Virus record (IMG/VR): IMGVR_UViG_3300025009_000243
Location: 1 to 39,223 of that record
From: a virus
DNA length: 39,223 nucleotides
Strand: one strand, 5' to 3'
In this document: piece by piece, positions 10,712 through 34,032 of the stretch
Position numbering within the stretch: position 1 is the stretch's first letter
Layout: each line of letters starts with the position of its first letter
Made by a program: the position numbers and the translations under genes
The notes under the pieces: generated by a model
What the model was told of the DNA's origin: nothing
What the model saw: only the letters and a program-made list of their open reading frames with translations
Databases searched by the model: none

Positions 10712-10743
10712 CTCTTATCTAATTATTTTTTATAAATATGCAC

Positions 10744-10898
10744 AGAGAATCCCGCTCATTCTCTGGCACTCTCACAAGCTAATCGCGGGGCTTGCTATTT
10801 GCGCGTATACACGCAAATAAAATGAGATTTTTATTCATTGTATTTAATATTGATATTAATATTAAATAAGGTTTCAGTATCGATAATGCTCCTTATCG
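10744..10898. other. Hairpin-rich junction at the left edge of the GC-rich island
   Basis: Between the metallophosphoesterase start and the island there are three inverted repeats: AGAGAAT/ATTCTCT (10744-10764), ATTTGCG/CGCAAAT (10797-10818) and CGATAA/TTATCG (10881-10898). An AT-only palindromic stretch lies at about 10840-10866. The last hairpin follows the stop of the island's last gene and could help end its transcript, although no U-run follows. No recombinase or terminal repeat pair was found. Confidence 0.4.
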
Positions 10899-10901
10899 GA
10901 C

Positions 10902-11531
10902 CTATTCCACCATCGCCGCCCATACTGCGCTCATATCCACGCCCAGCGCGGTCGCAATACCGGCAATCTGCGCGCCTTCATCGGTTGCAGCGCGCAGGGC
11001 GGTAGTGTTGGTTTTTCCGATGCTCTCCAGGTACGCTGCAATCCGGTCGCGTCTCGCAATGGCCTGGGCCGCGGTCTGCCCAATGGCGGTTCGCACCGCG
11101 GACGGGTAAAACGATGTGCCGAACACGCTGACTACCGCCAGCAGGCCCAGGGTGGATGCAGGTGACATTGCATATAACTCGTTGTGGATTGCCAGCAGGT
11201 TAGCCTGGGCCGCGTCCACCTGATAAATGCTGTATGCGCCAACGTCGGCAAGTTTGTAAGCCGGGCCGTCTACGACGGTTTGCAGGCTCACGATTTGCGG
11301 CGCAACCAGGAGCGCCTTGATTGCGCTTGCGCGGGTGTCTACAATACCGAGCGCGGCGAGAGCTTCGGCGGGTGTCAGGCTGAGATTGGTCATCAGGTTA
11401 TCGACGTGGCGCGAGTCCATGAGTGACATAGCTTCGGTCGTGCGCAGCAGGCCGAGCGCCACGAAACCGGGGGTATCGGCTTCGATTGTGCCGACTAAGT
11501 TGTCGTTGTGAATCAGGTAATAGGTTGTCAT
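10902..11531 (-). CDS. Island protein, unknown function
   Basis: 209 residues, not recognised. The N-terminus is short and polar (TTYYLIHNDNLVGTIEADTPG). The remainder is Ala/Leu-rich and predicted helical, with no clear signal peptide or Zn motif. Codon use is strongly GC-rich, unlike the phage genes around it. It starts nine bases after the stop of the LRR protein, with AGGAGCAG just upstream, so the pair is co-translated. The context (phage structural module, partner with PKD and LRR domains) suggests a tail or appendage component or its chaperone, which is inference. Confidence 0.75.
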   Translation of the reverse strand: MTTYYLIHNDNLVGTIEADTPGFVALGLLRTTEAMSLMDSRHVDNLMTNLSLTPAEALAALGIVDTRASAIKALLVAPQIVSLQTVVDGPAYKLADVGAYSIYQVDAAQANLLAIHNELYAMSPASTLGLLAVVSVFGTSFYPSAVRTAIGQTAAQAIARRDRIAAYLESIGKTNTTALRAATDEGAQIAGIATALGVDMSAVWAAMVE

Positions 11532-11540
11532 CGCTGCTCC

Positions 11541-12476
11541 TTATGAGGTCGTCACCGTCGCCCAATGTTTTGTGGATACGCCCGCGCTATCGTTCACCAA
11601 CTCGTAGGCATACTCTTTGCCCGTGGTGGGCGGGTTGGCCGCCTGGTATGTACCCGAAGGCGCGGCATTGGAACCGCCCGCTACGTCTATCGTGCCGTTC
11701 GTGCCGGTGCGGGTAGGGAAGGCGGCGTAAAGTTGTGCCAGTACACTGTCCACCTGGGCCTGCGATAAAGTGTTCTCGTATTGAACTGTTGTTAGTTTCA
11801 GTAGATTCCCTATCCCGGTCTGGAAAGCAACGTTAGAACTGCCAATAATAATTAACCCGGTCAGGTTGGTGAGACTTCCAATTTCGGTCGCCCCGATAGT
11901 AACTTTGGTAGCGGTATAAACTACTAGTGTTGCCAAATTGAGCAAACCGCCAATCTCGCCTGCCCCAACCGTAACGTTGGCAACCGATCTCAGATAAAGA
12001 TATGTCAGCGAACTTAAGCCGCCAATTTCTCCTGCCCCGGCTGTGATGTTTGCGCTGTTGTACAGATATAGATACGTCAGAGATGTAAGCCCGCCAATCT
12101 CGCCCGCCCCAACCATAATATTTGCTACGAAATCCAGGTGCAAAGCCTGTAGAGACTTAAGTGCTCCGATCTGGCCTGCCACGCAGCTCAATTTTGTGTC
12201 CCGCACGTCAAAGTAGGTTATCAATAGAGGGTTGCTGATCTTAACCGCCCACGTTCCTGCTCCTGCGTATGCGTGGGTAGTCGTGCCAATATTGCCCGCG
12301 GCAATTGTGCTATCCGCGCTCCCATCACCCCAGGACACGGTACACGTCCCCCCGGTCGGGGTGATGCGCTGTAATGTCAGAGTTGCCGCCCCGGTGGTGG
12401 TCGCGGTCAGATTGAAGGTAGCGGCAGTCCCGCGCCGCCCAATCATCAAAGCGCGCATTCGCGGCAAGCTCAACAT
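11541..12476 (-). CDS. PKD-like plus leucine-rich-repeat appendage protein
   Basis: About 311 residues from the chosen ATG; a GTG at 12488 is an alternative. After a basic N-terminus there is a beta domain with the PKD/polycystic signature SWGDGSAD and HAYAGAGTWAVKI. About five leucine-rich repeats of 24 residues follow, with a GEIGGLxxLxxLxL core. The end is a Gly/Ser/Thr-rich segment (GGSNAAPSGTYQAANPPTTG). Both domain types bind surface ligands, so a receptor-binding or tail-decorating role is likely (inference). The LRR units are close to each other in DNA as well as protein, suggesting recent expansion. Codon use is GC-rich and foreign to this genome. Confidence 0.75.
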   Translation of the reverse strand: MLSLPRMRALMIGRRGTAATFNLTATTTGAATLTLQRITPTGGTCTVSWGDGSADSTIAAGNIGTTTHAYAGAGTWAVKISNPLLITYFDVRDTKLSCVAGQIGALKSLQALHLDFVANIMVGAGEIGGLTSLTYLYLYNSANITAGAGEIGGLSSLTYLYLRSVANVTVGAGEIGGLLNLATLVVYTATKVTIGATEIGSLTNLTGLIIIGSSNVAFQTGIGNLLKLTTVQYENTLSQAQVDSVLAQLYAAFPTRTGTNGTIDVAGGSNAAPSGTYQAANPPTTGKEYAYELVNDSAGVSTKHWATVTTS

Positions 12477-12533
12477 GACACACCCCACATCCGATAATAC
12501 AAATTATCACTACCGTACATTATTCTACCAACC

Positions 12534-13010
12534 TTATTTAACTTGTTTAAAATGCTGTAAATGTACCACACTGGAGCCTCCAATTACCGCCAAAGATGTA
12601 TAATTACTCAAAATTGGAATAATATCCATAAAATCTTGTTTTACATATCCCGAACTAGAGCCAGACGCACTACCATTCGTAGGATTGATTTCATAATAAA
12701 TATCCCCTACTCTAGCAAAAATCTTAGTTGCAACCGTTCCAGTAGGTAAAGATACATTTACACTAGTTCCATTTAAAACAATCATTGAACCGCTAATAAA
12801 ATTATACGCTTTTTCAATTACAGATAAAGCAATTTTCTCTACGGTTTTAGCAGCGGTAACTCGATAATATTCATTTGTATCAAGATCAATACCTACCGCA
12901 CCAATATAGCCAACAGGAGTTGTAGTATCATTAATTACTGAACCACTCGTTAAATCGCTTGTTCGAAAAGTATAAGTTGGGGGATTCCCCGGTACAAAAG
13001 TAACCGCCAT
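12534..13010 (-). CDS. Beta-rich structural protein, unknown
   Basis: 158 residues, AT-rich codons like the main genome. Predicted beta throughout, with a Gly/Ser-rich linker (NPTNGSASGSSSGYV at about residues 110-125) before a C-terminal segment ending HLQHFKQVK. Not recognised. Composition and position beside other head genes suggest a virion protein. The ATG has AAAGGAGAATTTTATT upstream. It would have been adjacent to the metallophosphoesterase before the GC-rich island arrived. Confidence 0.65.
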   Translation of the reverse strand: MAVTFVPGNPPTYTFRTSDLTSGSVINDTTTPVGYIGAVGIDLDTNEYYRVTAAKTVEKIALSVIEKAYNFISGSMIVLNGTSVNVSLPTGTVATKIFARVGDIYYEINPTNGSASGSSSGYVKQDFMDIIPILSNYTSLAVIGGSSVVHLQHFKQVK

Positions 13011-20291: not shown

Positions 20292-20396
20292 TCAGGAGAT
20301 TATCGAAATCGATCAGGAGATTATCATTATTGGTCAGGAGATTATCAATATCGATCAGGAGATTATCGAAATGAGTCAGGAGATTATCGAAATGGG
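20292..20396 (+). repeat. Five 21-bp iterons, candidate replication origin
   Basis: Five contiguous direct repeats start at 20292, 20313, 20334, 20355 and 20376. Each has the invariant 13-mer TCAGGAGATTATC followed by eight variable bases (often GAAATNNN); a sixth start, TCAG, follows at 20397. The 21-bp period equals two helical turns, so sites face the same side of the DNA. Adjacent to a winged-helix gene, this is the classic layout of an iteron origin. The repeats lie partly inside an 84-codon open frame (20120-20374) with no good ribosome site, which I do not call as a gene. Confidence 0.7.
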
Positions 20397-20699
20397 TCAG
20401 CGCCTGGACACAAAGATACTATATAAGAAACTATAAAGAGAAGACTTAAGAAAAAAAGAAGAGACTAAAGAATTATATTCAAAGACATATAACTTTTTTT
20501 TTACCTCCTTTTTGGTGGAAGTTTAGGCATTTTTTTGGTTTTAAAAATTGTGTGGTTTATTATAGTTTATTATAGTTTAGTTGGGTATTTATAGGTTGTG
20601 GGATTCTTCTGGCAATTTGACTGACCATTTGACAGATTCATTTTTCGGATATTCTTAATTTCAATTTCGAACATTTTTTATTTAAACAATGCTCTAAAC

Positions 20700-20735
20700 A
20701 ATACTCCTCCTTGCTGGCAGGGACGGAGTATTTTT
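20700..20735 (+). terminator. Strong rho-independent terminator
   Basis: AATACTCC (20700-20707) pairs with GGAGTATT (20725-20732). The stem continues inward (20708-20713 with 20718-20723, one bulged C) to a CTGG tetraloop, and TTTTTG follows. It should end the rightward initiator/iteron transcript. Confidence 0.8.
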
Positions 20736-20769
20736 GTTTCTTATAGTGTAGTAGGGGTTAGGTTTGAAT

Positions 20770-20804
20770 GTTAGATGTTAGATGTTAGATGCTAGACGTT
20801 AGAT
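20770..20804 (+). repeat. Five 7-bp tandem repeats (GTTAGAT)
   Basis: Units at 20770, 20777, 20784, 20791 and 20798; the fourth is changed to GCTAGAC. They lead into the ATTAGG-rich stretch. Confidence 0.85.
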
Positions 20805-21385
20805 GTAAAGTATTAGGTTAGGGTATTAGGTTGAGATATTAGGTTTATTAGGATCAGGGATTATTAGGATTATTCGAGTTATTGGTTTTATTGACTATTA
20901 GAATTTGTTAGGGGTTATTAGTTTTATTGGAGATTATTAGGGTCTATTGGGATGTATATTGGGATGTATTAGGGATGTATTAGGGTCTATTTAATATTAT
21001 AGCAAATTATTTGAGGGTTAAAATAGTTGGTATTGGGTGGTGTGATGAGGAGGAGTGGGGGTTAGAAGTGGGTGTGTGAGTTGAATAGCTATGGGCATTT
21101 TTTCTGTTTTTTATCATAATAATCATGTAAAATAGGGGCTATTGATAATGATTCTCATTAATAATCACCTGTTATTTGCCATAATGTATATATTATGACA
21201 AATTATCAAGCTTTTTAGGCTATAAATTGAATAATTTTATTCTGTTCTTAAGATCGTCAAGGGGAGGCTTAATTTTCTTAATAATTTTAAGATTCAAACC
21301 AGCGCTAATGTTAAAGAAAAGTCTTACGCTATGCCCTATGTTAAATAATAGACACCTGTTCAATAATAGACACATACCCCCTATC

Positions 21386-21447
21386 TGTTCATTATCTTAC
21401 ACTATGTTCATTATCTTACACTATACTGTCATATGTTCATTATCTTA
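21386..21447 (+). repeat. Direct repeats of TGTTCATTATCTTACACTA
   Basis: Two exact adjacent 19-bp copies (21386-21404 and 21405-21423) and a third, partial copy (21434-21447). Confidence 0.85.
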
Positions 21448-21911
21448 TAATGTTTACATAATAATAGACCATACGTTCTTAGAATACCCGTTCTATCATC
21501 AGTGGATGTGTGCGCTATCCATGCGCTATCCAGTATCCTGCTATCCTACTCCCCTTCCATTGAACCTACCTATACTTAGACCATACGTTCTACCTATACT
21601 CTAATTGTACCCCACTTGTGAAACCTATCACTATATTGTGAAACCCTACACTAATAGGTACAATAGCCCTATTCTGGATGTGCTATCCATTATCTATCAT
21701 CCATCCTAGTTAAACCTACATTACTTATATCACCCTGATATACATATTATATGAATAGACTCTACTCTCATTTCCCCTCATTTCATGCTATCCATGCACT
21801 ATCCATGTGCTATCCATGCTATCCACTGTTATTTATTGTTTGTTCTGATATCCAGGTATCTTCCATCGTTCTATCTATCGTTCGTTCTATCCATTGGCAA
21901 TAGAATAGCAG

Positions 21912-21953
<42 letters not shown>

Positions 21954-22336
21954 ACATAATATAAACTTATCCCACATACCCTATCCATCCTACTAATAAA
22001 ATTGTGTCATTTATTATTATTCCCTGTCACTCACACATGCAATCGATTCTGTCAAATATACACTACCCCCTTATATATGGATGAAACGAGATACATACCC
22101 CTATATATGGTGGTTTAATATCCCACATTGCGAAAAAATTTTGTTCTGACAAATTAGTAATGTTAAAGACTATTATTGTATTTTTAAAACCCTTTTCAAT
22201 AATCATTGAATTCTGATTGTACCTACTTTCACAATAGCCATATATGGGGGTTTGTTCCTACCATACCCCCACATATACTGGTTAAACATATCCAACATAC
22301 CCTAAGAAAAAACGATAAAAAATTGAAAATTTTAAG

Positions 22337-22364
22337 TTGACATACTTTTTTTTACGGGTAAAAT
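22337..22364 (+). promoter_or_regulatory. Rightward promoter of the GHKL gene cluster
   Basis: TTGACA (22337-22342), 16-bp spacer, TAAAAT (22359-22364). A perfect 12-bp inverted repeat (22360-22371 with 22377-22388) overlaps the -10 and the expected start site and could be an operator. Transcription from here gives an untranslated leader of about 450 nt before 22825. Confidence 0.65.
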
Positions 22365-22388
22365 TTGCTTAAGCAATAAGCAAATTTT
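22360..22388 (+). promoter_or_regulatory. Operator-like inverted repeat over the -10 box
   Basis: AAAATTTGCTTA and TAAGCAAATTTT are perfect complements across five bases. Shorter AAAATTT-AAATTTT inverted repeats recur upstream of later genes in this cluster (24869-24885, 26185-26202, 27405-27422). Confidence 0.5.
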
Positions 22389-22411
22389 ATATAAATTTAT
22401 TCGTTTTTCCC

Positions 22412-22765
22412 TTCCGGGTTGGAAACCTGGAAACCGCAAATTTTCAAACCGAATAGGTAGGGTAGGGATATCATCCGATATTGGAAGTGTATACCAGAGG
22501 GGCAAACCTAAGTTATTATCAGATATCATTAGGTAGACTGGTTACACGCTAAATTATTCAGAAACCGAAAAATAGACGGTTATAGTCAAAATTGCGTACT
22601 AATACCCGACTTGCGACTATAAAGGGGACAAACGCCGAAATTCAAATAAACTAAATAAATCACTTTACAGGGATATCCAAAAAAGCCCTACAATTTTCAA
22701 ACCAGAAAAGACAGAAAAGACCATTTAAGCGAAACGATCTGTTTAAATCGTCTTTTGTGTCTTTT
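22412..22765 (+). other. Structured 5' leader of the GHKL cluster
   Basis: Three hairpins precede the first gene: 22412-22432 (9 bp, one G-U), 22580-22622 (TTATAGTC/GACTATAA, 27-nt loop) and 22706-22765 (23-position stem with two mismatches, loop 22729-22742). The last is long, stable and 60 bases before the first start codon. It could be an attenuator or protect the 5' end. No known riboswitch was recognised. Confidence 0.5.
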
Positions 22766-23381: not shown

Positions 23382-24776
23382 ATGTCCACTACGCGCAAGA
23401 CCAAAAAATCTAACATGGATGAAATACCTTATTCAATGATTTATTCTTATGCTGGCAACTGGGGATATAAGGAAATGGCAAGGGAATTAGAAGCGAACGC
23501 GCGAGATACACATACCCCGGTTAAGGTGTACGTGAAAAATAACACGTTGATTATTGAGGATAGCGGAGAAGGGATTAAACCGCATCATCTATTATTAGGT
23601 GAACACGAGAATCGAACGGGGGAAAGTATAGGACAATTCGGAGAAGGATTAAAGCTTGCATTTATGCTATCCATTAAGCTTAACCTCCCCATGATAGTGT
23701 ACTCTCATGACTATATCTATCACACGGAAAAAACCATTACGGCAGGAAAAAACACTTTCAAGATTGTCTATACCTGGGGAAACCCTTCTGTCAATGGTAC
23801 ACGTGTAGAGGTTTCAAATTGGGAGTATCCTACATACTACGATGAATTGTTCTTAGATGAATCTACAATCATTTTTTCCACTCTAAAAGGCAGTATCATT
23901 GCAAAGTCTAGCATAGATGATATTTCTAAAATCTATGTTAAAGGTGTTTTTGTAAAAGAATCAAGCGAATTCGGACTATCCTATAACTTGATTAAAGTAT
24001 CAATGCAAAAAGGCAGAAGCACTCTAGAAAATTGGGAAATAAATAATCAAATTGGGGAAATAATAGCGCAATGTGAAGACTCTAAAATTTGGGAATTATT
24101 TTTTAAGGCTATTGAATCGGGAAAACAGGAAACAAACATTACAATTAGAGAGTGGTATATGTCCGACGCAAGCAAAAAGGCAATGAAATTAGGATTTGAA
24201 AAGGTTTTTGGAGTTAAAACAGTATTACAAACCAGTATTGACAAGTCCGTTGACGCTATTCATAGAGGTGTACACAGTGTTATTTCTGAGGACAAATTTG
24301 GTACTTACATTAGAGAAATTGTATCCTCAGAAATTGGGACGGATGAATCATACCTGAAAGAAGTTTATAAGGAAAAATACCAGAAAACAACTACACATAA
24401 GATATCACCCGAACAAAAAGTAGTATTGGGATATTTGAGAAAAATTTGTAAAAAAGTAGGGTTTAATGCTCATACGTCTTTAAAAATTGCGTCAAAAGAT
24501 GCGCGCCATCCTGGTATTTTTCACCCTAGTACTGGTATTATTGATATTAGAGAGGATATGTTATGGGATTTACAAAAATCCATTGACGTATTAACGCACG
24601 AATTAGGACACTGGTATGATCAAAAAATACATGGGGAAACGAACGATAATAGCGATAATCACGTTAACGCCATTACTGCTATTAGTGCAATGATCATTAC
24701 TGGATATGCTATCCATGACAGGAAAAAAGAAAAATTGGAGGAACAAATCAAAAATAGAAAAGACAACGACGATTAA
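23382..24776 (+). CDS. GHKL ATPase fused to a zincin metallopeptidase-like domain
   Basis: 464 residues. The N-terminal domain has the Bergerat-fold ATP site of gyrase, Hsp90 and MutL: N box ELEANARD (residues 35-42, Glu35 and Asn39), G1 DSGEG (60-64) and G2 GQFGEGLK (84-91). A middle domain of about 230 residues follows. The C-terminal domain carries HELGHWYD (His406, Glu407, His410), the zinc and catalytic motif of zincins; a third ligand is not certain. The pairing suggests an ATP-driven clamp linked to a protease or a structural Zn domain. Phage rIIA proteins are also GHKL ATPases and counter host exclusion, so an anti-defence role is possible. Start: AAGGAGTCTAAAATG. Confidence 0.8.
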   Translation: MSTTRKTKKSNMDEIPYSMIYSYAGNWGYKEMARELEANARDTHTPVKVYVKNNTLIIEDSGEGIKPHHLLLGEHENRTGESIGQFGEGLKLAFMLSIKLNLPMIVYSHDYIYHTEKTITAGKNTFKIVYTWGNPSVNGTRVEVSNWEYPTYYDELFLDESTIIFSTLKGSIIAKSSIDDISKIYVKGVFVKESSEFGLSYNLIKVSMQKGRSTLENWEINNQIGEIIAQCEDSKIWELFFKAIESGKQETNITIREWYMSDASKKAMKLGFEKVFGVKTVLQTSIDKSVDAIHRGVHSVISEDKFGTYIREIVSSEIGTDESYLKEVYKEKYQKTTTHKISPEQKVVLGYLRKICKKVGFNAHTSLKIASKDARHPGIFHPSTGIIDIREDMLWDLQKSIDVLTHELGHWYDQKIHGETNDNSDNHVNAITAISAMIITGYAIHDRKKEKLEEQIKNRKDNDD

Positions 24777-24805
24777 CTTTTATCTCTAAATTTTCCTCTT
24801 TCATG

Positions 24806-24858
24806 CGCTACAGGATATCTCAAAATTATCTCACTCACTCATGAGATATCCTGTAGCG
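24806..24858 (+). terminator. Long perfect hairpin after the GHKL gene
   Basis: A perfect 17-bp stem (24806-24822 with 24842-24858, 19-nt loop). Imperfect outer pairing extends both arms by roughly 15 more bases through a T-rich left flank and an A-rich right flank. It could work as a terminator on the minus strand or as a transcript-stabilising hairpin on the plus strand. Confidence 0.55.
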
Positions 24859-24868
24859 AAAAAAGGGA

Positions 24869-24885
24869 AAAATTTGTAAAATTTT
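24869..24885 (+). repeat. AAAATTT inverted repeat, copy 1
   Basis: AAAATTTGTAAAATTTT, about 45 bases before the next start codon. Same family as 26185-26202 and 27405-27422. Confidence 0.5.
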
Positions 24886-24929
24886 CTCGAAAAATAGTCC
24901 ATTAACAGACAGAAAAGAAGGAGTCTAGA

Positions 24930-26534: not shown

Positions 26535-26564
26535 ATGGCGAAAAAGCGCGCAAAAAAGAAGTAA
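26535..26564 (+). CDS. Nine-residue basic micropeptide (candidate)
   Basis: ATG to TAA encodes MAKKRAKKK, six of nine residues Lys or Arg. The stereotyped TAGGAGTCTATT leader directly precedes it, and a strong terminator follows 40 bases later. It could be a real micropeptide that binds nucleic acid, the remnant of a longer basic protein, or a translation-control frame. Only the leader supports translation. Confidence 0.4.
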   Translation: MAKKRAKKK

Positions 26565-26604
26565 AGTCAATAGGGCCAACAAATCTATAACAGAAAAATC
26601 GAAT

Positions 26605-26655
26605 AAAATTAGTGGATTTTTCCCCAAAACAAGCCGGGAAAAATCCACTAATTTT
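26605..26655 (+). terminator. Strong rho-independent terminator closing the GHKL cluster
   Basis: A perfect 20-bp stem (26605-26624 with 26636-26655, 11-nt loop) runs into a T-tract to 26658. It ends the 22825-26564 unit. Confidence 0.85.
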
Positions 26656-27337
26656 TTTATTTAATTTGAAATCGGACAATTCTTATCTTTTATATATTTT
26701 ATACCTAAATTATCATATTCAAATAAGACTAAAAAGGTCTAATTCGGAAAAATACCTAAAATACCTAAAACACCTAAAATATATAAAATGTCTAAAACAG
26801 GATCGCGGTTTTCCAGCTCTTTATTAGAATAAACATTCTACATATTCTTTAACATAATATCTTAAAGAATTCAAGCCCTCTGAACCTATCCAACATTTTT
26901 TAACATTGTTTAAATTTTGTGGGATATTTAACCCCCATATATAGCCAAAAAACCATATTATGTTAAAACCATATCCACATATAGGGGTCTCAAAATTATA
27001 AAAATTTGAGGTTTAATTTTAAGAATCTCACAGAATGCCCCACAATCGTTTAAAAAATGAAATAGGTAGTAGGGTATACCTTTTCAAAAATCGTTGAACC
27101 TTGCCCGATTGCACTGACAAGTATTTTTTTTCACAATTGAATTGTGCTTCTTATTATAGCCTATAAAATACTATTATAATGAAGGAACGCCCCTTCTGAG
27201 AATCCGACCATTTCACAATTCCTATTGAAAAATCTACAAAAATTATAAAAAATATAGCATAAAATAATGCTTTTATTGTGCTTCTTAGTTGGTTCTGAGA
27301 TATAAAAAAAACACAAAATTTTATAAAATATTGCCTA

Positions 27338-30379: not shown

Positions 30380-30443
30380 AAAACAACAAAAAAACGATAA
30401 AAAATTGATTTTATGGCATAATAGAAAAATAGGAGAAAAAATC

Positions 30444-30795: not shown

Positions 30796-31029
30796 ATGAA
30801 AAATAATAATAATCATTCTAACAGCCTTATGGGTATTACCAGAACAGATAAATTTATAAAAGTCATTCGAGAAATGGGCTATATAGAAGGGCCAAAAAAC
30901 GGTTCATCACATAGAATTTTTAAATGCAATGGTAAACCCTGCTTATCTATCCCGAACAATCGGGAATTAGCACCGGGAACACGAAGAAATTTAGTCAAGC
31001 TGATTTGTGGTAGTGAATACTACTTATAA
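30796..31029 (+). CDS. HicA-like mRNA interferase family protein (orphan)
   Basis: 77 residues. After a poly-Asn start, the HicA/YcfA double-stranded-RNA-binding-like fold is visible: a helix (KFIKVIREMGYI), the GSSHRIFK element carrying the catalytic His (His39), a strand (KPCLSIPNN) and the closing ELAPGTRRNLVKLI helix. HicA toxins cleave mRNA and are normally paired with a HicB antitoxin. The next gene is not HicB-like, so this may be an orphan used against host mRNA or neutralising host HicB. AAGAGGCTATA precedes the ATG; it has its own promoter. Confidence 0.7.
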   Translation: MKNNNNHSNSLMGITRTDKFIKVIREMGYIEGPKNGSSHRIFKCNGKPCLSIPNNRELAPGTRRNLVKLICGSEYYL

Positions 31030-31395: not shown

Positions 31396-31752
31396 ATGGA
31401 ATCGGCGTTAGATAACAGTTATGTCGATTTTGGTAAAATTTTTAAAAATTTCTTTATACTTATGCTCATTGTGTGTATTACAATTGTATTTGTTCTATCC
31501 ATTCACGCGTTAGAAAAGCATAAAACCGACGCTGAGATAGTTGAAGAATGCCTAGATAAAAATGGCCCTATTGCTACATTGACGCGCTCTAGTGATAACA
31601 GAAAGGCGATTATTTGTGAGGTTTTTCCTGGTAAATTCGGAGTTAAAATTGATGAAGAATCAGGAACAAATGTTACAGCGTTTATTAAGAATAAACTTAA
31701 GACATTGGAACAGGTATTCAAATATCTCGATAACACTGGTTATGCCCCATAA
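31396..31752 (+). CDS. Single-pass membrane protein
   Basis: 118 residues. One transmembrane helix at about residues 16-35 (NFFILMLIVCITIVFVLSI) with a short N-terminal cytoplasmic part. The roughly 80-residue soluble domain (acidic/basic, with two Cys residues) is probably outside. Strong AGGAGGATAATAAA site. Not recognised. Possible superinfection-exclusion or envelope protein (inference only). Confidence 0.6.
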   Translation: MESALDNSYVDFGKIFKNFFILMLIVCITIVFVLSIHALEKHKTDAEIVEECLDKNGPIATLTRSSDNRKAIICEVFPGKFGVKIDEESGTNVTAFIKNKLKTLEQVFKYLDNTGYAP

Positions 31753-31783
31753 AAAATTATAAAAATTCATTGTTTATTGCCTC

Positions 31784-31811
31784 TTGACAAATAACAAAAA
31801 TTTGCTATAAT
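31784..31811 (+). promoter_or_regulatory. Consensus extended -10 promoter driving the structured RNA
   Basis: Perfect TTGACA (31784-31789), 16-bp spacer ending in TGC, perfect TATAAT (31806-31811). It is among the strongest promoters in the window, yet no coding region follows for about 280 bases. Confidence 0.85.
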
Positions 31812-31817
31812 AAATAT

Positions 31818-32056
31818 AGAACTATGGGTTTTACTGCTTTACCCTTATAAAGCGGCGTTTGCAAGATAACGAAAACTTGTATGATGCTAGATAATAATGA
31901 TTGTCCTCATTTCTAGCCTTACGAGGACACAAGAAATAATTTCAAAACGCGTGAATCAAATATCGGATATAAAAATTAACCGCCCATTAACTAACACTTG
32001 TAAAGGCAGAGGCGGAAATCAAGGGAAGCTAATCTACCTCCGACGCGTTGTTTTTT
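31818..32056 (+). ncRNA. Candidate structured noncoding RNA, about 240 nt, with interlocked helices
   Basis: Starts about six bases after a consensus promoter and ends in a stem plus T6. Visible helices: 31834-31840/31849-31855 (7 bp, loop ACCC able to pair with GGGT at 31826-31829). GCTAGA 31886-31891 pairs with TCTAGC 31912-31917, and TGTCCTC 31902-31908 with GAGGACA 31923-31929, in A-B-A'-B' order (pseudoknot), enclosed by CTTG/CAAG (31876-31879/31930-31933). CCGCC 31980-31984 pairs with GGCGG 32011-32015, interlocked with CTTG 31997-32000/CAAG 32020-32023. The closing stem is AACGCGT 31946-31952/ACGCGTT 32043-32049. An unpaired ACCTCC (32036-32041) matches the 16S anti-Shine-Dalgarno core. 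No long open frame. It could be free-standing or a leader for 32094. I do not recognise a known class. Confidence 0.7.
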
Positions 32057-32093
32057 CAAAATAAAATTGATTTTTTATCAGGAGATAATAATC

Positions 32094-32492
32094 ATGGTTA
32101 GAACAATTACCCCTGAATTACAAGAAGTTTATGAACAATTGAAAAATGAGGGATTCGAGGTTTATACCTACACTTGTGAATCCAATAAAAATGAAGAAAT
32201 TACTTCTCTTTACTGGTTTGAAAATGGTAGGGTTTTGGATATTCAGCCCTCATCGTGGTATAACAAAAAATATAATTCAGATTGTTTTAATCTGTCGGTT
32301 GCCTATTTCCCATCACGCGAAAATGGATCAGGATATTTATTGTCCCCCTCTGATTGGGGAATGATGGCAAAAGATTTATTGAAATATCGTAAAAATAGAG
32401 CGTTAGTTAATTCAATAAATTATACAAGCATGGAAAATTTTTTGAAACATCAAGGAAAAATTTTGAGATTTCATAAAGTAGAAGAAGAATAA
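32094..32492 (+). CDS. Unknown protein downstream of the structured RNA
   Basis: 132 residues from the ATG at 32094, chosen because CAGGAGATAATAATC precedes it. An N-terminal helix (TPELQEVYEQLKNEGFEVY) suggests an alpha/beta fold; then Trp/Tyr-rich strands and a C-terminal helix (MMAKDLLKYRKNRALVNS). Not recognised. If the upstream RNA terminates only partially, this gene would be the regulated target. Confidence 0.6.
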   Translation: MVRTITPELQEVYEQLKNEGFEVYTYTCESNKNEEITSLYWFENGRVLDIQPSSWYNKKYNSDCFNLSVAYFPSRENGSGYLLSPSDWGMMAKDLLKYRKNRALVNSINYTSMENFLKHQGKILRFHKVEEE

Positions 32493-32532
32493 CAGTCTAT
32501 AAATTAACAATTTCATTTGTGAGAATAACAAA

Positions 32533-32685
32533 ATGGATACAATCAAATTAACTAATGGAAATTATTTACATGGTGTTATATATATTAAATCTGAAATAGA
32601 TAGTTTTGGTAGTCTTTATTTTGCAGTAACGACAAAAAAAAATATATACAAGCTTTATCCTAATGAAATTGATAGTATTATTTAA
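32533..32685 (+). CDS. Small beta-type protein
   Basis: 50 residues (begins DTIKLTNGNYLHGVIYI). The alternating strand pattern resembles a small SH3- or Sm-like barrel, but this is a weak impression. Upstream there is only a poor ribosome site (GTGAGAATAACAAA). It lies 40 bases after the preceding gene. Confidence 0.45.
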   Translation: MDTIKLTNGNYLHGVIYIKSEIDSFGSLYFAVTTKKNIYKLYPNEIDSII

Positions 32686-32702
32686 TTAGGAATATAAATC
32701 TC

Positions 32703-32876
32703 ATGAGCGAATCGCAATCCACAACTATTTTACGAGAAAATTTTCAAAATTATCGGGAATATTTGAAGGTTTATCAGGCACATTGCCGATATTTTGGATA
32801 TAAAGCGAGGGTCTTTGGAGGTTGGAAATTCTTTATATTCGAACAGGATTATCGAATTTGGAAAAATCAGAAATAA
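32703..32876 (+). CDS. Small basic/aromatic protein
   Basis: 57 residues with a Tyr/Phe/Arg-rich body (YREYLKVYQAHCRYFGYKAR; GGWKFFIFEQDYRIW). Predicted helix then beta hairpin. Not recognised. TTAGGAATATAAATCTC precedes the ATG. Confidence 0.5.
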   Translation: MSESQSTTILRENFQNYREYLKVYQAHCRYFGYKARVFGGWKFFIFEQDYRIWKNQK

Positions 32877-32891
32877 CAGGAAAATTGGAAT

Positions 32892-33116
32892 ATGAAAAAT
32901 AACCCGGTTTCTCTTCAAGCCATTTATAATGTTTTCAGGAAATGTACCAAAAAAGAGCTAAGATATCCTAATTATAACGGATGGGTTTTTGTTGGTTGGG
33001 TTTATTGTAATAATGATAATCTTCCAATTAATACAAAAAGTATGAAATATTCCGTAAGTATTAATGGTAATTTTTTTGAAAATTTTCCTACTAAATTAAT
33101 CACAAATAATCAATAA
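32892..33116 (+). CDS. Unknown small protein
   Basis: 74 residues. Basic N-terminal helix (LQAIYNVFRKCTKKELRY), then an aromatic beta part (NGWVFVGWVYCNND). Not recognised. CAGGAAAATTGGAAT precedes the ATG, 15 bases after the preceding stop. Confidence 0.5.
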   Translation: MKNNPVSLQAIYNVFRKCTKKELRYPNYNGWVFVGWVYCNNDNLPINTKSMKYSVSINGNFFENFPTKLITNNQ

Positions 33117-33140
33117 AATTATCTTTTTATGGAGTCTAAA

Positions 33141-33779
33141 ATGAAAAATATTATCATTCTCGCTCATTCCCCTATAACAGAATCTTGTGTAGAAGAAAAT
33201 ACCCTATTTTATACTCAATGGGGTATAAGTGAAATTGAATCCGAACAGGAAAAAGATGATCTAGTTAGTAAATACGCTTGCAGAGAAATTTATGGTTTTT
33301 ATAATGTTTTTGTATCTATGCGGCGTAGAGTAAAAATTCAAAAAAATTGTGCTTACGATAATGAAATCTTCCTAGATTGGAATATTTTAGATTTTTCCCC
33401 TAATCAATTTGAAGCGGCGAAAATGTGGGATACCGCTTATAGAAACGCAAAAAGTTTACATCCTTTGCATAATAGGATTGTCAAATGGTTTGAGAATATT
33501 GCACAAGCAAAGTTAGAATTTGTAGAATTAAATAAAAAAATTACTCCTGCTGGATTTTTCAAGGATATTCCTTTATATGTTGAATATGGGGAAAGATATC
33601 AAGCTGAATTGAAAAAGCGAAAACTTTTTTCTAAAGCACAAAAAGGATTAGTGGACGAAAAGATTTTAGATGAAATTAAAAAACCATTAAAAGAAGCTTA
33701 CAATCAAGAATATGCAAGCATTATCAAGCGAATTGAAGAGTTAGAAAATCAAATCAAATCGCTTGAGGAAGAAGAATAA
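33141..33779 (+). CDS. Unknown protein with C-terminal coiled coil
   Basis: 212 residues. The start at 33141 follows the shared leader TATGGAGTCTAAAATG; an in-frame ATG at 33129 is the one inside that leader. An alpha/beta N-terminal half with MRRRVKIQKN is followed by long helices. The last 30 residues (YASIIKRIEELENQIKSLEEEE) are a coiled coil, suggesting oligomer formation. Not recognised. Confidence 0.65.
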   Translation: MKNIIILAHSPITESCVEENTLFYTQWGISEIESEQEKDDLVSKYACREIYGFYNVFVSMRRRVKIQKNCAYDNEIFLDWNILDFSPNQFEAAKMWDTAYRNAKSLHPLHNRIVKWFENIAQAKLEFVELNKKITPAGFFKDIPLYVEYGERYQAELKKRKLFSKAQKGLVDEKILDEIKKPLKEAYNQEYASIIKRIEELENQIKSLEEEE

Positions 33780-33807: not shown

Positions 33808-33835
33808 TTGACATTTCTCTATTTTTTGCTATAAT
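33808..33835 (+). promoter_or_regulatory. Consensus extended -10 promoter
   Basis: Perfect TTGACA (33808-33813), 16-bp spacer ending TGC, perfect TATAAT (33830-33835). It drives the 33886 gene. TTTGCTATAAT is shared with the promoter at 31784-31811. Confidence 0.85.
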
Positions 33836-33885: not shown

Positions 33886-34032
33886 ATGAAAACTATTATT
33901 CTCTTTGATCAAGGCGATTCTATGGAGTTTTGGGGAAATATTGAAATTTGTAAAGATGATCTAGCGGATATCTTTATGATTGTTCAGTATGATTTTTCTG
34001 GACGTATGGTAAATAAAACTTTCTTTGCATAA
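33886..34032 (+). CDS. Small acidic protein
   Basis: 48 residues, acidic (EFWGNIEICKDDLADIF). The AAAAGGGAGTCTAAAATG leader is of the shared type, and it has a consensus promoter 50 bases upstream, so strong early expression is expected. Not recognised. Confidence 0.55.
   Translation: MKTIILFDQGDSMEFWGNIEICKDDLADIFMIVQYDFSGRMVNKTFFA

Follow-up and report, generated by a model that had tools for sequence, protein, structure and literature searches.

Does the DNA between a perfect promoter and the first of five small phage genes specify a structured RNA, and what might such an RNA do? The locus lies in IMG/VR record IMGVR_UViG_3300025009_000243, whose 39,223 bases we analyzed as a whole (hereafter the window). 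An earlier note, made from the letters alone, had described positions 31818-32056 as a promoter-to-terminator RNA with two or three interlocked helices, possibly acting either as a separate phage RNA or as a leader of the gene at 32094. The source is an uncultivated phage of the SPbeta-terminase group from a groundwater-type metagenome: its terminase shares 97% identity with that of IMGVR_UViG_3300025117_000036 (G001, 121.9 kb), the longest related contig, and 32 to 37% with those of SPbeta-group and Thomasclavelia phages. The nearest collinear relative, IMGVR_UViG_3300025010_000178 (G004), aligns in order with a large part of the window, and its contig stops at window position 30421, 1.4 kb short of the locus. 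Genes point leftward in the first 19.2 kb or so of the window and rightward from about 19.5 kb, and the right half of the window is made up of small genes, mostly orphans, as in phage early regions. Among them, 30796-31029 encodes a domain resembling HicA toxins (Pfam PF07927, score 28.7 bits, cut-off 27), next to which no HicB partner was recognized. Elsewhere, GC content rises to 45-57% around 11-13 kb, compared to mostly 24-35% in the rest of the phage; relatives do not align over this stretch (10712-12600), which is possibly a recent acquisition or a gene of biased composition.

The consensus promoter claimed for 31784-31811 (plus strand) was confirmed. It is an extended -10 promoter of the sigma-70 type (TTGACA-16-TATAAT with TG) that matches the consensus at 12 of 12 positions, and from it transcription is predicted to start at about 31818. 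Scanning both strands of the 39 kb revealed two perfect extended -10 sites, at 31784 and 33808, compared to 0.085 perfect sites expected, and two such sites occurred in none of 200 shuffles of the window. The second promoter (33808-33835) lies 52 nt ahead of the gene at 33887, which illustrates the short leader normal for this phage. At the locus, by comparison, 282 nt separate the promoter from its first gene, whereas in the phage group most promoters matching at least 11 of 12 positions and followed by a gene lie less than 110 nt from that gene.

The resulting leader, of about 276 nt up to the start codon (31818-32093, plus strand), has a GC content of 0.38 versus about 0.30 in its surroundings. 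As the earlier note had stated, it appears free of genes: no open reading frame of at least 60 amino acids was found within 31753-32066. A small protein of 55 amino acids (31897-32064) was considered and rejected, since its frame lacks a Shine-Dalgarno sequence and its codon usage is non-coding (-0.147 bits per codon, whereas 25 genes of the window taken as reference score +0.03 to +0.43). Downstream follow five small genes (32094-33779). The first (32094-32492, plus strand) has an AGGAG ribosome site and encodes an orphan protein of 132 amino acids, for which no relatives were found in PHROGs, Pfam (above cut-off), NCBIfam or PADLOC, nor among phages, plasmids and related contigs; its AlphaFold model (pLDDT 48) was too poor for comparison. 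No plus-strand promoter matching at least 10 of 12 positions was found within 31900-33490, indicating that the gene run depends on the promoter at 31784 or on read-through from upstream.

Every helix listed in the earlier note was present in the leader at the letters given there. The strongest candidate is pseudoknot 2 (31886-31929, plus strand), of the H type, in which GCTAGA (31886-91) pairs with TCTAGC (31912-17) over 6 bp and is crossed by the 7-bp pairing of TGTCCTC (31902-08) with GAGGACA (31923-29). Interlocked perfect stems of 6 and 7 bp in an H-type arrangement arose in 0.8% of dinucleotide shuffles, or in 1.2% with the stems in either order. Candidate pseudoknot 1 (31826-31853, plus strand) consists of GGGU (31826-29) paired with ACCC (31841-44) and crossed by GCUUU/AAAGC; the helix list also holds an alternative hairpin, CUGCUUUA/UAAAGCGG, at 31834-31855. 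Between these two elements, a small candidate hairpin, UGCAAG/CUUGUA (31860-31881), competes with a long-range pairing of UUUGCAAG (31858-65) with CUUGUAAA (31997-32004). The weakest candidate, pseudoknot 3 (31980-32023, plus strand), combines CCGCC (31980-84) and GGCGG (32011-15) with CTTG (31997-32000) and CAAG (32020-23).

A blind scan of 31818-32056 for the best three non-overlapping H-type pseudoknots, which made no use of the coordinates in the earlier note, returned exactly the same three: 31886-31929 (-15.9), 31826-31855 (-10.9, extending pseudoknot 1 to 31855) and 31980-32023 (-7.8). These energies were computed by simple stacking plus a fixed penalty and are fit for ranking only. Their sum, -34.7, was reached in 1 of 6000 shuffles. 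To calibrate this null, the same test was applied to 326 segments, that is, to 163 non-overlapping window positions on both strands. At p <= 0.005 we obtained 13 control segments instead of the 1.6 expected; the shuffle null is thus anti-conservative, too lenient in its tail by a factor of about eight. On this calibration, the locus ranks about third of 163 positions, with an empirical p of about 0.02 (top 2%), which is suggestive and not proof. The segments 24648-24886 and about 26560-26800 have a pseudoknot and inverted-repeat potential as high as that of the locus. Furthermore, the nested minimum free energy (MFE) fold showed no excess stability over shuffles, either for the whole region (z -0.16) or for 31940-32056 (z 0.17), and the minus strand scored equally high, since perfect Watson-Crick stems fail to tell the strands apart. 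The interlocked layouts of the earlier note therefore stand as pairings. The 6 + 7 bp pseudoknot is unusual among shuffles (p about 0.01), the contact between GGGT and the ACCC loop ranks second in the blind scan and the CCGCC/GGCGG layout with CTTG/CAAG ranks last, but calibrated support for all three is modest.

The 3' end of the leader was said to be a 7-bp stem followed by T6. These letters are present: AACGCGT (31946-52) and ACGCGTT (32043-49) form 7 bp, followed by one G and six T's (32051-32056, plus strand). However, the stem closes a loop of 90 bases, its quality is borderline (4.8% of shuffles were as good, p 0.048), and a standard terminator scan made no call at 32051-32056. Folding the isolated 3' part by MFE predicted a larger domain (31946-32049, plus strand), in which AACGCG (31946-51) and UCGGA (31963-67) both pair with the arm UCCGACGCGUU (32039-49). 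The helix UCGGA/UCCGA (31963-67/32039-43) is absent from the earlier list; since it joins the terminator stem, the 3' arm becomes contiguous, and the isolated part folds as one branched stem next to U6 that encloses CCGCC/GGCGG. Only 0.02% of shuffles gave an equally good two-part layout, in a post hoc test done after the layout had been seen. The stem ranks third among those preceding the 86 plus-strand T6 runs of the window; of the terminator-like stems that precede T runs, the strongest lies at 26652. We consider 32051-32056 a possible weak or conditional terminator. A pairing that could compete as a classical antiterminator, GCGUUU/AAACGC, exists but is not above chance, a fraction of 0.26 of shuffles being as good. 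The same domain bears on ACCTCC (32035-40), which had been proposed to be exposed and to touch ribosome sites. It is not clearly exposed, since in the predicted domain TCGGA (31963-67) is the partner of TCCGA (32039-43), and its complementarity to the ribosome sites of the phage was no higher than in shuffles (fraction 0.33).

To determine whether the locus is shared with other genomes, we searched for homologues at several levels. Rfam 15, searched at curated thresholds and permissively up to E <= 10, gave nothing except chance matches far below threshold, in agreement with the earlier statement that no known RNA class was recognizable. A passing likeness to twister or another self-cleaving ribozyme (CCGCC...UAACAC) had no Rfam support and was dismissed. 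BLASTN against 50,697 phage records and 72,556 plasmids recovered promoter-like or AT-rich fragments only. In IMG/VR, an exact 28-mer had no match, and a gapped pseudoknot pattern had 15 chance matches, all lacking the fourth strand. A credible homologue was found neither by BLASTN in 34 related phage records nor by nhmmer in 1.1 Mb of sequence from relatives, and no relatives were found by using the neighboring proteins as anchors. Two single-sequence covariance models, run on up to 35 records, gave one weak match, which we discarded because it does not have the pseudoknot layout and falls, in another phage, within what is apparently a structural gene. With no homologue found in these collections, from which records very close to the window may be missing, there is no covariation for the helices of the locus. 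A similar search recovered another RNA of the window (22365-22720) in both G001 and G004, indicating that such searches work on this phage group; the absence of any match in G001 to any part of 31818-32056 is therefore informative for that contig.

This other element (22337-22691, core 22457-22691) is better supported than the locus itself. A promoter-like TTGACA-16-TAAAAT (11/12) is followed by about 235 nt, and the core is closed by GUAGGG/CCCUAC and GGAUAUC/GAUAUCC. The core is conserved in G001 (L015 18072-18306) and G004 (L017 4160-4393) with paired changes in three helices (CCGGGTT/AACCTGG versus CTGGATT/AATCCAG, CCUA/UAGG versus UCUA/UAGA and AGUC/GACU versus AGAC/GUCU); it matched no Rfam family at threshold and no phage or plasmid. 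Directly before it, beyond the point where gene direction changes from leftward to rightward, lie about 2 kb of non-coding, low-complexity and strongly skewed DNA (20375-22336) with TTATTAGG-type and TATC repeats, possibly a replication origin region. Promoter-driven stretches also occur in two related phages, G016 (L129 2772-3060) and G027 (L146 near 1371, minus strand); in these, copies of a 'AGTTCCTT' element interrupt or flank tRNA-like sequence.

Taken as a whole, these data lead us, tentatively and at somewhat less than an even chance, to read the locus as a 5' leader whose termination is leaky or conditional, rather than as a separate small RNA. It would stand at the head of an operon of accessory phage genes, probably an early one. 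From the strong sigma-70-type promoter, transcription would start near 31818, and the first 240 nt or so are predicted to fold into a compact RNA in which up to three consecutive H-type pseudoknots, of which the middle one (31886-31929) is the best supported part of the fold, would co-exist with a long 3' stem that ends in U6, a short way ahead of the ribosome site serving the gene at 32094. This stem may halt some polymerases, yielding a short leader RNA and a read-through mRNA for 32094-33779. The pseudoknots, in turn, might set or sense the balance of termination, whether by way of an alternative fold that competes, of a factor that binds or of the stability of the RNA. Leaky or conditional termination is the economical assumption here, because a strong terminator at 32056 would starve the gene run of transcription from 31784 or from upstream. 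The reading is favored by the long gap between promoter and gene, by a perfect promoter far above chance expectation, by the non-coding character of the 55-aa frame, by the three tandem pseudoknots of the blind scan and by the branched 3' stem beside U6. It is weakened by the lack of homologues, including in G001, by a nested fold no better than shuffles, by the 90-nt terminator loop with its borderline stem and chance-level antiterminator and by stems equally good on the minus strand. We regard the promoter and the non-coding leader as genuine and a pseudoknotted RNA candidate as plausible, and the function we infer. The claim is kept modest because no relative of the locus has been found: it is at present an orphan candidate whose structure comparison cannot confirm.

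Two other explanations deserve consideration. The leader could be ordinary or leftover sequence behind a real promoter, its helices being functionless chance pairings in a GC-richer stretch. The ordinary nested folding energy, the lenient shuffle test, the equally scoring segments elsewhere in the window and the lack of conservation, shared by the orphan gene downstream, would all fit such an origin. Nevertheless, three tandem pseudoknots, of which two have perfect, GC-rich stems, immediately following one of the two perfect promoters would then be a coincidence, and the locus still ranks among the top 2% of segments in the window, so that we consider this explanation somewhat unlikely, though to be taken seriously. 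Alternatively, the locus could encode a small RNA in its own right, about 235 nt long, that ends at 32056 and acts in trans on targets in the host or the phage, the downstream genes being reached by read-through. Such an RNA would have its own promoter, a non-coding sequence, a U6 end and possible pseudoknots. Moreover, 31886-31930, one of six segments tested, by itself exceeded all 60 shuffles in complementarity to ribosome sites, and the start regions at 32533 and 37347 paired better than 100 of 100 shuffles. However, the complementarity of the whole RNA to 47 start regions was ordinary (fraction 0.24), the best segment itself sits in predicted stems, and the terminator on which a separate RNA depends is weak, and up to 33490 no further good promoter is available to the genes downstream. 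Of the two roles considered in the earlier note, the leader of 32094 is thus the better supported, and a separate RNA appears unlikely to us.

The order of parts also recalls type III toxin-antitoxin loci, in which a single promoter is followed by a pseudoknotted RNA, a terminator and a protein, and of which phages can carry pseudo-ToxI decoys (PMC5086642). On this model, the RNA would be an antitoxin to a toxin encoded at 32094, or a decoy against a host module. Like the ToxI, CptI and TenpI RNAs, the locus combines a promoter with a candidate H-type pseudoknot RNA and a small downstream protein, although its terminator is weak and was not called by the standard scan. Unlike type III antitoxins, which consist of tandem near-identical repeats (PMC5086642), it has no direct repeat array, it matched no Rfam antitoxin, and the 132-aa protein matched no ToxN-, CptN- or TenpN-type toxin family in Pfam, PADLOC or NCBIfam, its low-confidence model offering no comparison. 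We therefore hold a module or decoy of this kind to be very improbable.

Tandem pseudoknots are likewise known from the STAXI motif, mainly one pseudoknot in two or three tandem copies, often with UUCG loops and near DNA-handling genes (PMC2864571). The candidate pseudoknots of the locus are also arranged in tandem but differ from each other in sequence and spacing, form no regular repeat, have no UUCG and stand next to orphan genes, and a cmscan of 31700-32150 gave no STAXI match up to E=10. We thus assign the locus to neither STAXI nor the type III family. A tmRNA, which also contains a chain of pseudoknots, was rejected, since ARAGORN found no tRNA-like domain or tag frame in the window and Rfam gave no match. 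GOLLD and ROOL are large, phage-associated structured non-coding RNAs; the locus would share with them a long structured phage RNA but is much shorter, and the window had no Rfam match. A leader RNA of a new class, unrelated to described families, in which three different tandem H-type pseudoknots gate polymerase into a phage accessory operon, seems doubtful to us at this stage. Control by RNA structure is poorly catalogued in phages because pseudoknots escape standard searches and phage sequences diverge fast, and if the tandem pseudoknots are real, the locus would provide a compact, testable example of an RNA switch heading a phage operon. In layout it also resembles, as a general class, the transcription-attenuation leaders of phages and bacteria. 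The locus departs from these in that its stem closes 90 nt rather than a short loop, no antiterminator is significant, and no ligand, leader peptide or protein site was recognized, but it has in common with them a strong promoter, a long untranslated leader that is predicted to be structured and a stem with a U tract before the gene.
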